Positions 1-32,312 of a stretch of DNA of 64,000 bases are shown in pieces. Numbering within the stretch: position 1 is the first letter of the stretch; every line of letters starts with the position of its first letter. The position numbers were made by a program, and so were the translations under genes. The DNA is from Arenibacter catalasegens. Lineage in GTDB: Bacteria > Bacteroidota > Bacteroidia > Flavobacteriales > Flavobacteriaceae. Location: contig NZ_PHQQ01000026.1 of the NCBI RefSeq assembly GCF_002909235.1, forward strand, positions 1 to 64,000, written 5' to 3'. The notes below the pieces were generated by a model. The model saw only the letters and a program-made list of their open reading frames with translations. It was not told the DNA's origin and did not search any database.

Positions 1-125
1 ATTGCTCGATCCTTCAAAGTGGCGCAAAACGAACCGAAATCCCTCAGGGAAGTGGCGCAGTTTGAACCGAAATCACTGGCGCAATGAAACCGAAACGCCT
101 GGCGCAATTTGGTCCGAAGTATCCA
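1..125. mobile_element. End of an IS21-like insertion element (tandem terminal repeats)
   Basis: Four imperfect direct repeats of the form TGGCGCAnnnnnaaCCGAAa start at 20, 53, 77 and 100, the last one ending in GGTCCGAAGTATCCA at 125. Multiple short repeats inside each end, and a terminus that reads TGGATA from the outside, are the pattern I know from IS21-family elements of Bacteroidota. The transposase and helper genes (istA/istB) would lie to the left, outside the window. The boundary at 125 is inferred from the TATCCA terminus and from the reading frame to the right, which is intact up to that point. Which end of the element this is, and whether a target duplication exists, cannot be seen here. 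Confidence 0.65.
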
Positions 126-204
126 AGCCGAACAAAAACACAAGAAATATTATACTTGTAGTTGAATTTAGTTTTTTAATTAAAACAGTTTTGCTTGTCA
201 TCAT
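126..204 (-). pseudogene. 5' remnant of an exported protein gene cut by the IS21-like element
   Basis: Reading leftwards from tandem ATG codons at 204/201, 26 codons remain before the element boundary. The peptide starts MMTSKTVLIKKLNSTTS and continues into a hydrophobic run (IIFLVFLFG), which looks like the beginning of a signal peptide. It sits about 28 bases downstream of a perfect Bacteroidota -7 element and an AraC-type operator that matches the one in front of the cyclase operon. After the boundary the frame runs through the repeat array without homologous content. The gene was therefore probably a regulated, exported protein whose remainder lies beyond the insertion. Product unknown. 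Confidence 0.5.
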
Positions 205-231: not shown

Positions 232-290
232 CAAAGATATCCGGGCTTTTAGCACCTTTAAAGACAACTTTGTGTCAAAAACGGACGAGT
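232..290 (-). promoter_or_regulatory. Promoter with AraC-type direct-repeat operator (copy 1)
   Basis: On the minus strand the -7 element TATCTTTG (232-239) fits TAnnTTTG exactly. Nineteen bases upstream begins a pair of half-sites with a 21-base period: GTTGTCTTTA and CTCGTCCGTT. The upstream portion GTCCGTTTTTGACA is identical to copy 2 at 2409-2422, and the -7 element is at the same distance in both copies. Two helical turns between half-sites, placed where the -33 box would be, is what an AraC-family activator needs. It would drive the gene truncated by the IS element. The binding protein is not proven; the HMA-AraC regulator encoded at 657-1232 is the obvious candidate. Confidence 0.6.
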
Positions 291-394
291 AAAAAAATGA
301 ATTCTAAAAGTGTTAATTTCCCACAGTTATGTTTGATTGCCAGAAACCCAATTTGATATACCAAAGGATATCCATATCTATTTAGACAAAAAAA

Positions 395-414
395 GCCGTC
401 CACTAGTGAACGGC
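395..414 (-). terminator. Rho-independent terminator of the cyclase/AraC/Cys-rich operon
   Basis: GCCGTcCACTAGTGaACGGC forms a hairpin. Read on the minus strand it is followed by a run of T (plus-strand A run at 388-394). It lies 24 bases beyond the stop codon of the Cys-rich peptide gene and so closes the minus-strand operon. The plus-strand side also has a short T-rich tail, so it may work in both directions. Confidence 0.75.
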
Positions 415-438
415 CTTTAAAATTTAATCAAGAGTTGT

Positions 439-561
439 CTAAATGCAATTTGCAGATGTACATGTTGAACCGCAATTGCAATTAACACATTTACAATTTG
501 GATTCCCGCATTTTACATTGTCTGTTTTTTGAGAGCTATTGCTCACTATTGTTGATTTCAT
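439..561 (-). CDS. Cysteine-rich metallothionein-like peptide (40 aa)
   Basis: This short frame encodes 40 residues. The first 17 are Ser/Thr/Asn-rich without cysteine; the rest carries seven cysteines (C18, C23, C25, C28, C30, C34, C39) in the spacing Cx4CxCx2CxCx3Cx4C. It has CxC and CxxC pairs and no histidine or aromatic residues, the composition of a metal-thiolate peptide. There is no signal sequence, so it would act in the cytoplasm, possibly binding Cu(I), Zn or Cd. It is 95 bases downstream of the HMA-AraC regulator on the same strand and is followed by a terminator, so it is probably the last cistron of that operon. No family is recognised with certainty; a metallothionein role is inferred from composition and context. 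Confidence 0.7.
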   Translation of the reverse strand: MKSTIVSNSSQKTDNVKCGNPNCKCVNCNCGSTCTSANCI

Positions 562-656
562 AATTATGTTTTTTATTGTTTTTTAATGAAGTAAAAGTAG
601 CCTTTGCAAGGATGTATTTGTTATACTTCTTTGGGAATTGATTGTATAGTTTTGGG

Positions 657-1232
657 TTAAATCTTGTCAATAGGGAAACGGTGGGCAATACCCATTCCCT
701 TAAAAAAAGTGGGAGTTAAACCAGTAATATTTTTAAACTGTTTTGATAGATGGGCTGCTCCACAATAATTTAGTTCATAGGCAATTTGAGATAATGTCAT
801 TTGGTCATAGGTCAGCAACTCTTTCGCTTTTTCAATGCGCTGTTCAATAAAATAATTCTCAATTGTTCTTCCTTCAACCAATGAGAATAAACTACTCAAG
901 TATGTATACTCATGATGAACGTTCTCGGAGAGGTAAGTGGACAAATTTATTTTTATGGCTTTTTCATCCACTTCATTACGAGCCCTTTTAATTACGAGGT
1001 TTTTAATTTTCTCAATAAGCCGCCCGGTATTATTATCAATAATTTCGAAGCCTAGTGCTTTGAGTTCTTCATTCAGCTGCTCTTTTTCCTTTGTTGAAGG
1101 CGCTATCATTAACCTTATTTCCCCAATACTGACTTTTTGAAAAGGGATTATATTATTTTTTAAAATATTCTCGACAGCAAGTATACAGCGGTTGCAGACC
1201 ATATTTTTAATAAGTAGTGTGGCAGTAATCAT
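657..1232 (-). CDS. AraC-family regulator with N-terminal HMA-like metal-binding domain
   Basis: This 191-residue protein starts like a heavy-metal-associated domain (beta strand, then MVCNRC with C13 and C16 as the CxxC metal site, then a helix and the GFEII strand near residue 62). A linker leads to an AraC-type double helix-turn-helix at roughly 95-180 (LSQIAYELNYCGAAHLSKQFKNITG is split here as LSQIAYELNY and AHLSKQFKNI). The architecture implies a regulator that senses a soft metal ion through the CxxC. It is third in a minus-strand operon after the cyclase-YHS protein and the DUF6010-like protein (9-base gap) and precedes the Cys-rich peptide. A paralogue without the CxxC lies at 31749-32312. 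Metal identity is unknown. Confidence 0.8.
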   Translation of the reverse strand: MITATLLIKNMVCNRCILAVENILKNNIIPFQKVSIGEIRLMIAPSTKEKEQLNEELKALGFEIIDNNTGRLIEKIKNLVIKRARNEVDEKAIKINLSTYLSENVHHEYTYLSSLFSLVEGRTIENYFIEQRIEKAKELLTYDQMTLSQIAYELNYCGAAHLSKQFKNITGLTPTFFKGMGIAHRFPIDKI

Positions 1233-1241
1233 AATACCTAT

Positions 1242-1643
1242 TTATTGGTTAAATCTTTTTATTGTAAACTGGTTGTTGAAGGCTAAAATATAAGCACTAA
1301 CAGTAAAATCAAGTGATGAGCAAAACATATCATAGTTTGGAGGAATCAATCCTGGGTCTGAAAAAAGATTATAGGCAACATCCCAACATCCATGTAGAAA
1401 ATAACCCATAGCAAGTATATGAACACCCTTTTTAATGCCATAATAGGCCAAAAACAGGAACAAAACTGCTTGGAAGGCATTTACCACCAAAGCCTGTATA
1501 TCTGTCCAGACAAAACCTACATAGAGAAATCCAATTCCGGATAGGATAAGCCCATAGACTATTTTTTTGTCCAAATGCTTTACTATGCTAAACAGTAAAA
1601 TAATGAGGAGTCCAGAGGAAATTCCAATAGTGATTGGTATCAT
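1242..1643 (-). CDS. DUF6010-like integral membrane protein
   Basis: The 133-residue protein has about four hydrophobic segments (near 5-20, 30-50, 55-75 and 80-95). The motif GYFLHGCWDVAYN and the preceding LAYYGIKKG resemble the DUF6010 family of small membrane proteins, whose function is not known to me. The ATG at 1643 is 22 bases after the stop of the cyclase gene, and its stop is 9 bases before the HMA-AraC start, so it is embedded in the same transcript. A conserved His-x-x-x-Asp in the HGCWD segment could bind a metal, but that is speculation. Confidence 0.65.
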   Translation of the reverse strand: MIPITIGISSGLLIILLFSIVKHLDKKIVYGLILSGIGFLYVGFVWTDIQALVVNAFQAVLFLFLAYYGIKKGVHILAMGYFLHGCWDVAYNLFSDPGLIPPNYDMFCSSLDFTVSAYILAFNNQFTIKRFNQ

Positions 1644-1665
1644 AGTGTTTGTTTTTTAAATAGAT

Positions 1666-2349
1666 TTAATTAAGAATTAGCTGATTTTCAGATTGATCTA
1701 GCATTTCTGTATAATGAACACTATTGTGGTTCTTATTATATTCTTCGAGACATTGTGTAGAACAAAAATAGAGTTCGTTTTCATTTGGATGATGGATTGC
1801 ATATTGAGGGTTGACGATCAACATACGGCAAATGGGGTCGACAAGAGTGGTCGTTGTTTTTTCGATACTTACTTCATATATTTCTTTTTGGCCATTAATA
1901 TTTTTAAATAGATGACTGCCTTTCGATTTAAATGCACAAATAGATTTATTCGTTAATGATTTTACAAAGTCATCAGAACACCAAAAGGTACCTGCCAGGG
2001 CTTTAGCGGCAATTCTGGACGCCAGATTAACAGTTGATCCAAAATAACTATCCGTCCGGTTCAAAACTTTACCAAAATGTAAGCCCCCATGTATCTGAAG
2101 AAAATTTTCTTCATTTGTTGTGTTGGCCTCTAAATTAAGAGCAGTGGCAAGTAAAAAGTCAGGATAGTCGGAGACGAACATTATTTCATCCCCTGTGCGT
2201 TGGTGCATTTTGCTATCGCCAACTAGGCAATTTTCTGCGATACGTATATATTTGTCAATTAAATCAGCAGCAGAGGTGGCACCATGGGTTTCCGTAAGTG
2301 CGGAATATCCCGATAAATCTGCCATTAGAATAGCTATGTTTTTTTCCAT
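1666..2349 (-). CDS. Class III nucleotide cyclase fused to a YHS metal-binding domain
   Basis: I choose the ATG at 2349 (227 aa), because it is preceded by a perfect -7 element and begins the catalytic fold directly; the frame could be extended upstream to 2424. Residues 1-165 are a class III adenylate/guanylate cyclase domain: metal-binding D11 (MADLSGYS) and D54 (RTGDEIMF), and the transition-state pair N108 and R112 (GSTVNLASRI). The usual substrate-specifying Lys and Asp positions look altered (Gln and Ser), so the product (cAMP or cGMP) is uncertain. Residues 170-205 form a YHS-type domain (DPICRM, then YFCSTQC with C174, C196, C200), which binds soft metals in copper/heavy-metal proteins. 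It is the first gene of the operon ending with the Cys-rich peptide, suggesting metal-modulated signalling. No signal peptide or membrane anchor is visible. Confidence 0.75.
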   Translation of the reverse strand: MEKNIAILMADLSGYSALTETHGATSAADLIDKYIRIAENCLVGDSKMHQRTGDEIMFVSDYPDFLLATALNLEANTTNEENFLQIHGGLHFGKVLNRTDSYFGSTVNLASRIAAKALAGTFWCSDDFVKSLTNKSICAFKSKGSHLFKNINGQKEIYEVSIEKTTTTLVDPICRMLIVNPQYAIHHPNENELYFCSTQCLEEYNKNHNSVHYTEMLDQSENQLILN

Positions 2350-2367
2350 TGTTAATGTTTTATAATA

Positions 2368-2425
2368 CAAATGTATCCTAGAATTTAGGCTGGCAACGGA
2401 CAACAAGATGTCAAAAACGGACAAC
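2368..2425 (-). promoter_or_regulatory. Promoter of the cyclase/HMA-AraC operon with AraC-type operator (copy 2)
   Basis: On the minus strand TACATTTG (2368-2375) matches TAnnTTTG and lies about 19 bases before the ATG at 2349. Nineteen bases upstream of it sit two perfect 10-base direct repeats, GTTGTCCGTT, at 2395-2404 and 2416-2425, i.e. with a 21-base period on one face of the helix. They replace the -33 TTTG box, as expected for an activator-dependent promoter. Copy 1 at 232-290 has the same arrangement. The rest of the gap up to 2679 (about 250 bases) contains no convincing gene; it includes the region before the DMT permease. Confidence 0.65.
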
Positions 2426-3549: not shown

Positions 3550-3691
3550 GACCTAAGTAACCTTAATTTACTGGCCTTGGCATATCAACTTCTACAGCTG
3601 TTTTTATAGTTGGATTTTCTTCTACAGCGGTTTTTTAAAATTAATTGCTCTAATATGAATATCAAATCACAAATTAGGTTTAGTTTTGTTA

Positions 3692-3787
3692 TTGAAATGG
3701 GGTGCTTGCAATATGGGCGGGCTGAGATGATACCCAGGGGTTTTAACTCTGAACCTGATCCGGATAATGCCGGCGTAGGGATTTTAA
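3692..3787 (+). promoter_or_regulatory. TPP (THI-box) riboswitch
   Basis: The conserved TPP aptamer blocks are all present in order: GGGGTGC at 3699, GGCTGAGATGATACCC at about 3719-3734, ACCTGATCCGGATAATGCC at about 3753-3771, and GGCGTAGGGA ending at 3781. The closing P1 helix is formed by TTGAAAT (3692-3698) and ATTTTAA (3781-3787), with one G-U pair. The element lies 70 bases before a PnuC-family transporter gene, so it should lower expression of that gene and the one after it when thiamine pyrophosphate is plentiful. No long terminator stem is evident between the aptamer and the start, so control may be at translation initiation. Confidence 0.96.
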
Positions 3788-3858
3788 TTCGAGGAAGCAA
3801 TCTAGCTAATCGATACTATCTTCATCTTTCCATTTCATTAACTTAAGTATGGGAATCG

Positions 3859-31748: not shown

Positions 31749-32312
31749 TTATTCTTGGGTTAAGGCTCTTTCTTTTCGTTTCTGAATTATTTTCAGAAAT
31801 GTAGAGGGGGTTAGGCCAGTAGTTTTCTTGAATTGGGCAGATAAATGGGCCACACTGCTATAATTAAGTTTGAAAGCTATTTCTGTTAGGGTTGAATTAT
31901 TTTGACTAATTAGGTTTTTTGCAAAATCTATTTTTTTTAAAATCACAAAATTCTCGATGGAGGAATAGGTAGTTTCCGAGAAGATTGAAGATAAATAAGT
32001 ATAAGTATAATCCAATTTTTCGGAAAGATATGTAGAGAAATTATAGCGTTTGGGAATTTCTTCATGATGAATCCATTCCGTAACGGTATCCTTTATGCGC
32101 TGAACTAAGGCCACTTGTTGATCATCCATAATTTCTATGCCATAATTGCCCAATATATTGGCCATTTTCTCTTCTTCATTTCTTGTAGGTGGTCTGTTAA
32201 ATTCAACTTCTCCTACGCCATGTATCGTATAATCTAATCCTAGGATGTCCAATTGTTCACGCAAAACAGTTTTGCAGATAGCATTAAAATCGAACTTTAG
32301 ATAAACTCTCAT
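31749..32312 (-). CDS. AraC-family regulator with degenerate HMA-like N-terminus
   Basis: I start at ATG 32312 (187 aa); the frame can open earlier only with TTG. The protein is a paralogue of the HMA-AraC regulator at 657-1232: both have an HMA-like first 65 residues, the shared stretches NFSTYLSEKL/INLSTYLSENV, YTYLSS and the double helix-turn-helix (LTEIAFKLNYSSVAHLSAQFKKTTG region, about 135-180). Here the metal-binding CxxC is lost; only one cysteine remains in that loop (FNAICK). It is first in the operon with the receiver and histidine kinase, so it may have become a phosphorelay output regulator. Confidence 0.8.
   Translation of the reverse strand: MRVYLKFDFNAICKTVLREQLDILGLDYTIHGVGEVEFNRPPTRNEEEKMANILGNYGIEIMDDQQVALVQRIKDTVTEWIHHEEIPKRYNFSTYLSEKLDYTYTYLSSIFSETTYSSIENFVILKKIDFAKNLISQNNSTLTEIAFKLNYSSVAHLSAQFKKTTGLTPSTFLKIIQKRKERALTQE

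Follow-up and report, generated by a model that had tools for sequence, protein, structure and literature searches.

The left end of a 64,000-nt stretch of the Arenibacter catalasegens genome (positions 1 to 64,000 of contig NZ_PHQQ01000026.1, assembly GCF_002909235.1; hereafter the window) raises the question of which protein acts on two tandem operators of AraC type. One of them, site A, precedes an operon encoding HMA-AraC, a regulator with an N-terminal HMA-like domain and a C-terminal AraC helix-turn-helix (HTH) domain, and the other, site B, precedes a gene split by an insertion sequence (IS) of the IS21 type. A first-pass annotation of the window had assigned both sites to HMA-AraC. Our comparison across genomes indicates that the cognate regulator of these operators, which we call type I, is most likely not HMA-AraC but GLX, a 304-aa DJ-1/PfpI-AraC protein encoded on another contig, and that HMA-AraC has a predicted operator of its own, type II. 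We put the probability that GLX activates A, B and a third site, C, and that HMA-AraC activates its metal-defence promoter, at roughly three in four.

At site A, two identical 10-bp units form the direct repeat GTTGTCCGTT-N11-GTTGTCCGTT on the minus strand (2395-2425), a pattern that matches once in the window and in none of 100 dinucleotide shuffles. The 10-base repeats, their 21-base period and the 19 bases that separate them from a −7 box are thus present exactly as first described. Site B, CTCGTCCGTT-N11-GTTGTCTTTA at 259-289, was said to repeat this layout, and it does so in its register, its 19-nt distance, its box and a 14-mer shared with site A, its second half-site being weaker. This 14-mer, GTCCGTTTTTGACA, has only two copies in the 5.45-Mb Arenibacter genome, those at sites A and B, and is found in exact form in 4 of 18 Arenibacter genomes; with one mismatch allowed it was discarded as a marker, for it is not specific (54 matches compared to 59 in the control orientation in the same 18 genomes). 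The TAnnTTTG boxes downstream of both sites match the −7 element of σABfr and mark predicted promoters: TAnnTTTG is the Bacteroidota promoter consensus, and the paper that gives it also reports that in Flavobacterium johnsoniae the −33 motif was not found (PMC7366714). Type I sites also show what characterizes class II AraC/XylS sites, namely a direct repeat of about two helical turns at a fixed distance from the promoter. Judged by sequence, A and B are real, conserved regulatory sites. Their class-II AraC-type reading is upheld, and so is the claim that the HMA-AraC operon and the IS-split gene have in common tandem half-sites of AraC type, spaced at a 21-bp period, with TAnnTTTG close downstream.

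The type I operator, TGTCYGTWWNTGACA-N6-TGTC, recurs with the same −7 box distance in loci of Ferruginibacter, Chitinophagaceae and other Bacteroidota. A position weight matrix (PWM) of 21 sites, which replaced a first matrix of 17 and whose training left loci L260-L274 aside, gave 55 sites of at least 20 bits in the collected loci after removal of identical ones. TAnnTTT lies exactly 19 nt downstream of 36 of these sites and 20 nt downstream of 3; in another 12 the form is [CG]AnnTTT at 19-20 nt, and the remaining 4, one of which is a cut copy of another site, lack both. The distribution among the 33 sites that were not training sites (22 were) is 18, 2, 10 and 3, respectively. By comparison, TAnnTTT occurred at 181 of 54,800 random positions. 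The top PWM score in reversed sequence (1.53 Mb) was 14.7 bits, a lenient control for those loci that had been fetched because they carry the pattern. What stands directly behind type I sites includes the gene for GLX, the cyclase-DUF6010-HMA-AraC operon, and genes for a multicopper oxidase, an esterase (in relatives L041 and L198 as well) and an HMA-domain protein, together with a TolC/RND efflux operon and genes for small proteins.

The window starts at the end of contig C19. The start of contig C1, from the same genome, falls within an IS21 element, of which istB and a transposase C-terminus occupy L192:188-1683. The element is followed, in this order, by a part of a PF00756 esterase, a second gene for a Cys-rich peptide, site C and the GLX gene, which lies about 3 kb inside C1. 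Site C (L192:2979) is a weaker type I copy upstream of GLX, scoring 26.4 bits and located 19 nt from TACCTTTA. C19 and C1 would thus adjoin at the left end of the window, and the esterase part on C1 would complete the gene that follows site B and that the IS21 element has split. In A. echinorum (L033), the genes for HMA-AraC, the peptide and GLX stand in a row. GLX displays a DJ-1_PfpI domain followed by an AraC HTH (PF01965, 61.8 bits; PF12833, 50.6; PF00165, 48.9). Its best NCBIfam model is FtrA (NF006902), but the score of 169.2 bits against a cut-off of 425 rejects this name. At E 1e-60 or better, GLX occurs in 9 of 395 genomes of the class, and a plasmid search returned 49 records, all below 60% identity. 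Separately, a segment comprising the 3′ end of the HMA-AraC gene, the type II operator, the Cys-rich peptide gene and the terminator is present twice, at 391-660 of the window and at L192:2620-2925; these copies, one on C19 and one on C1, flank the esterase gene and are a partial duplication.

The two candidate regulators were compared in 23 genomes that encode HMA-AraC, in which type I was scored at no more than one mismatch and GLX was accepted from 68% identity. Type I was present in 9 of the 10 genomes with such a GLX versus 1 of the 13 without (Fisher p 1.1e-4); leaving out G131, G308 and G504, which had been picked by the motif, the counts are 7/8 versus 0/12 (p 1.0e-4), both p values being uncorrected for kinship. 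The recognition helices of HMA-AraC are the same or similar with and without the motif, and L039, which has it, and L042, which lacks it, share an identical second helix. In genome G488, the HMA-AraC locus (L035) carries no type I site, and three sites, one of them below the one-mismatch grade, are located on the GLX-bearing contig C17. A motif-independent search for GLX in 234 genomes from the same family as G489 gave 13 positives, 12 of them new and 11 with readable upstream DNA. Nine of these 11 loci carry type I at 20 bits or more, and in 7 of the 11 it starts no more than 90 nt upstream of GLX; tblastn detected no HMA-AraC in these loci, each up to 3.9 kb long, the search being confined to them. 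A motif scan of the genome and its relatives, proposed with the first-pass annotation as a check, thus finds the operator recurring with its −7 spacing, but tracking GLX and not HMA-AraC.

The DNA-binding residues of GLX agree with this assignment. In its HTH region, the best solved match is the DNA-binding domain of AdpA (3w6v), with which GLX aligns. In AdpA, Arg-262 and Arg-266 themselves read bases G2 and C4 of the target. Arginines at both positions are present in 40/40 GLX homologues and in 0/133 HMA-AraC proteins. The two half-sites of type I carry the matching G in 55 and 53 of 55 sites and the matching C in 54 and 55 of 55. Direct contact of the two AdpA arginines with target DNA (PMC8994273) and the importance of G2 and C4 in the AdpA site TGGCSNGWWY (PMC4021200) have been reported. 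GLX homologues of 41-52% identity have TGGC...TGTC...TGGC repeats upstream in L201, L203 and L204 and partial ones in L202 and L271, all sub-threshold on the PWM and judged by eye from low-scoring matches. The AdpA consensus itself was tried and rejected as a description of GLX sites, which read TGTCYGTWW, TGGC being found only upstream of the distant homologues.

HMA-AraC is associated with an operator of a different sequence, TRYAA-N7-CCAAAR-N3-YRYAA (type II), which has the same geometry as type I. In the window, this operator lies downstream of the HMA-AraC gene and before the gene for a Cys-rich peptide. Its proximal half-site starts 27 nt from the −7 box in most relatives compared, which equals the type I distance, and 26 nt in the window. 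A type II score of at least 15 was found within 350 nt downstream of HMA-AraC in 115 of 146 tblastn matches, upstream in 10 and in 72 of 2,920 shuffles; related genomes are counted separately among the 146, some loci repeat, and 4 matches are distant AraC proteins (20-40% identity), possibly without an HMA domain. The site lies upstream of HMA-AraC instead in L037, L038 and L042, and it also occurs where the genome lacks GLX, as in loci L042, L045, L049, L050 and L051. The last base of CCAAAR tracks the HMA-AraC helix (NN with CCAAAA in 41/41, TS with CCAAAG in 20/22), a relation confounded with kinship. A mis-spaced control, with N6 in place of N7, matched 15 of 395 genomes at up to two mismatches and 0 at zero mismatches.

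In the broader HMA-AraC family (L052-L112), the operator is often TACAA-N7-CCAAAA-N3-CACAA with a −7-like box CAAnTTTG. Neighbouring copA genes were counted in 29 of the 60 loci (L060 being excluded), the regulator being found in 28 of the 29. The next gene is P-type ATPase-like by its N-terminus in 27 of these 28 loci and starts 79-113 nt after the HMA-AraC stop codon in 25 of them, farther away in two; all three such neighbours compared with NCBIfam scored above the copper-ATPase cut-off. A profile of 28 HMA-AraC N-termini matches HMA domains with CxxC in ATP7B, CopA and CopZ chains, the best being an ATP7B chain (E 2.9e-8), while the single HMA-AraC protein of the window had no match to Pfam HMA. 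HMA-AraC is found at E 1e-40 or better in 116 of 395 genomes of the class. Considering (i) the profile match to HMA domains of copper transporters, (ii) the ATPase neighbours and (iii) the operator of its own, we take copper sensing as the probable role of HMA-AraC and its operator as family-wide, the metal being deduced from these sequence relationships. A second AraC-type regulator is encoded in the window (31797-32222, minus strand); it shares 42% identity with residues 34-177 of HMA-AraC, and the DNA downstream of its gene contained no type II operator above threshold.

The type II results bear on the model of the first-pass annotation, in which HMA-AraC binds A and B and so turns on both the operon that encodes it and the esterase gene. 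Site A does precede the HMA-AraC operon, both operator types have TGT-like half-sites in the same geometry, and in genome G131 two type I sites are found together with HMA-AraC but without a GLX orthologue. Even so, the motif is missing (at no more than one mismatch) from 12 of the 13 GLX-negative HMA-AraC genomes despite the same or similar helices, HMA-AraC has a conserved operator of its own across the family, none of 133 HMA-AraC proteins has the arginine pair, and type I sites stand at GLX loci in which no HMA-AraC was detected. We therefore consider this model unlikely and the assignment of type I to HMA-AraC, as far as sequence can tell, probably wrong. Its authors had named a widespread motif unassociated with HMA-AraC genes as the finding that would speak against them, and this is largely what is seen, G131 alone still fitting their model; the interpretation as a whole is partly supported. 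It is more doubtful still that GLX and HMA-AraC share type I sites, as separate dimers or as a mixed pair, with two signals converging on the operon. In many of the genomes a single locus holds both genes, and the two operator types agree in their 21-bp period and in their distance to the −7 box. The half-sites and recognition helices differ, however, and type I also turns up at GLX loci where no HMA-AraC was detected close by; of the alternatives considered here we give this one the least credence.

Several observations weigh against GLX as the type I regulator, or against the strength of the case for it. The second half-site of B is weak and fits the consensus more poorly than the first-pass annotation had implied. 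The distant GLX homologues L205 and L206 have no repeat, G943 has GLX but no type I in the GLX locus, G874 (49%) reaches only 11.4 bits, and G499 and G147 carry only a diverged version of type I. Among the genomes examined, none was shown to have GLX without HMA-AraC, which leaves the two signals partly confounded. A scan of the phylum at no more than one mismatch gave 6 type I matches (in 3 of 395 genomes: G000, G131 and G308) versus 5 in the control orientation, and single one-mismatch matches are thus weak evidence. On the type II side, the score was fixed after the sites had been inspected, and relatives were counted separately. The most direct counterexample is G131, a single contig of 100% completeness that contains HMA-AraC and two type I sites (L193, 6503 and 8738) and no GLX orthologue, the best match being 26% identical. 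GLX may have been lost from it recently, or its sites may be served by another regulator, either a nearby cupin-AraC protein or a distant DJ-1/PfpI-AraC protein (L255) with the same arginine pair. G131, in which another AraC gene is adjacent to the sites (L193:4861-5724), also gives some room to the idea that a third regulator binds type I and that GLX co-occurs merely as a member of the regulon. The arginine pair and the type I sites that stand at the GLX genes point directly to GLX, and we judge such a third regulator improbable.

With GLX as the regulator of type I, we propose the following model. Sites A, B and C would be class-II-type activator sites of GLX, an AdpA-like protein encoded downstream of the IS21-split esterase gene. 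Each of the two TGTC half-sites, 21 bp apart, would be occupied by one GLX monomer; the proximal half-site would end at about the place of a −33 element, and RNA polymerase would be recruited to TAnnTTTG. In this way GLX would turn on the esterase gene, the cyclase-DUF6010-HMA-AraC operon and, through site C, its own gene. HMA-AraC, with its copper-chaperone-like HMA N-terminus, would then bind type II at 621-646 and activate the gene for the Cys-rich peptide. The operators, their spacing and conservation, their association with GLX and the specificity residues are seen in the sequences; that the contigs are continuous, that the regulators bind and activate in a cascade, and that HMA-AraC responds to copper we infer from the relationships described above.

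The targets of the two regulators overlap in kind. In L049, from a genome without GLX, multicopper oxidase and esterase genes have type II sites, and in L050 the oxidase gene has a weaker one; in L041, both genes have type I. This difference suggests that GLX took over targets of HMA-AraC. In a broader picture, towards which we lean slightly, HMA-AraC would be a cytosolic copper sensor, widespread in the phylum Bacteroidota, with genes for copA-type ATPases and Cys-rich peptides as direct targets activated via TRYAA-N7-CCAAAR, and GLX a lineage-restricted second layer in which type I replaces type II at multicopper oxidase and esterase genes and HMA-AraC itself comes under GLX control.

Table 1. 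Features of the left end of the window and their coordinates.
Feature	Position	Strand	Remarks
Site A, type I operator GTTGTCCGTTTTTGACATCTTGTTGTCCGTT	2395..2425	-	two half-sites, 21-bp period
−7 box TACATTTG	2368..2375	-	19 nt from site A
Guanylate_cyc-domain protein, 227 aa	1666..2349	-	first gene of site A operon; PF00211, 29.5 bits
DUF6010 protein	1242..1643	-	PF19473, 70.8 bits
HMA-AraC regulator	657..1232	-	HMA-like domain at the N-terminus, in which NMVCxRC is invariant; AraC HTH at the C-terminus
Type II operator TACAA-N7-CCAAAG-N3-TATAA	621..646	-	proposed HMA-AraC operator
−7 box TACTTTTA	592..599	-	26 nt from start of proximal type II half-site
Cys-rich peptide, 40 aa	439..561	-	metallothionein-like by composition only
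Intrinsic-terminator-like hairpin	391..418	-	closes operon
Site B, type I operator CTCGTCCGTTTTTGACACAAAGTTGTCTTTA	259..289	-	
−7 box TATCTTTG	232..239	-	19 nt from site B
5′ end of gene behind site B (approximate)	126..204	-	PF00756 esterase part on contig C1 (L192:1790-2521)
IS21-type element end, repeated AACCGAAAT...GGCGCA (approximate boundary)	1..125	.	istB and a transposase C-terminus on C1 (L192:188-1683)

The 40-aa Cys-rich peptide matched no Pfam or NCBIfam model and is thus not placed in a metallothionein family. The DUF6010 protein recurs in L194, L195, L197 and L198, as do a 116-119-aa protein, a DUF2147 protein and open reading frames of 62-79 aa. On the plus strand of the window, a thiamine pyrophosphate (TPP) riboswitch at 3688-3798 (Rfam RF00059, 58.1 bits against a gathering threshold of 54.3) lies upstream of a gene of the NMN_transporter family (PF04973, 3859-4461), an arrangement that suggests a thiamine-related transporter.

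In a genome-based study of copper homeostasis in Bizionia argentinensis, a member of the Bacteroidota, the MerR and CopY-type proteins described lack known copper sites, and two ArsR-SmtB proteins with two conserved cysteines are named as possible regulators; the word AraC is absent from its main text (PMC11213822). HMA-AraC, with a predicted operator before copA, is a further and directly testable candidate for a copper regulator in Bacteroidota. In searches of the open-licence PMC library, the titles and abstract openings listed revealed no paper on the type I or the type II operator. The GLX layer appears to be a case of regulon rewiring in which target genes of the same kinds, such as multicopper oxidase and esterase, carry an operator whose type differs by genome, and the locus cautions against assigning operators to the nearest regulator gene.

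CueR/CopA and similar systems are cytosolic copper-sensor circuits. The HMA-AraC gene resembles them in that, across its broad family, it often adjoins a gene for a copper P-type ATPase, but the sensor differs in being an AraC-type protein with an HMA domain, not a member of the MerR, CsoR or CopY types. The type I operator parallels class II activation at XylS/Pm and AraC I1-I2, where direct repeats with a 21-bp period likewise lie beside the upstream element of the promoter, and differs in standing at a Bacteroidota TAnnTTTG promoter, with different boxes and regulators. In the XylS/Pm system, two 15-bp repeats are described (PMC5481539). GLX itself is closest to AdpA of Streptomyces, with which it shares the order of DJ-1/PfpI and AraC HTH domains, both arginines and near-invariant G2 and C4 in TGnC. 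Unlike AdpA, GLX belongs to another phylum and has predicted metal-related targets, and its sites read TGTCYG rather than TGGCSNG and form 21-bp tandems at a near-fixed distance from the −7 box.

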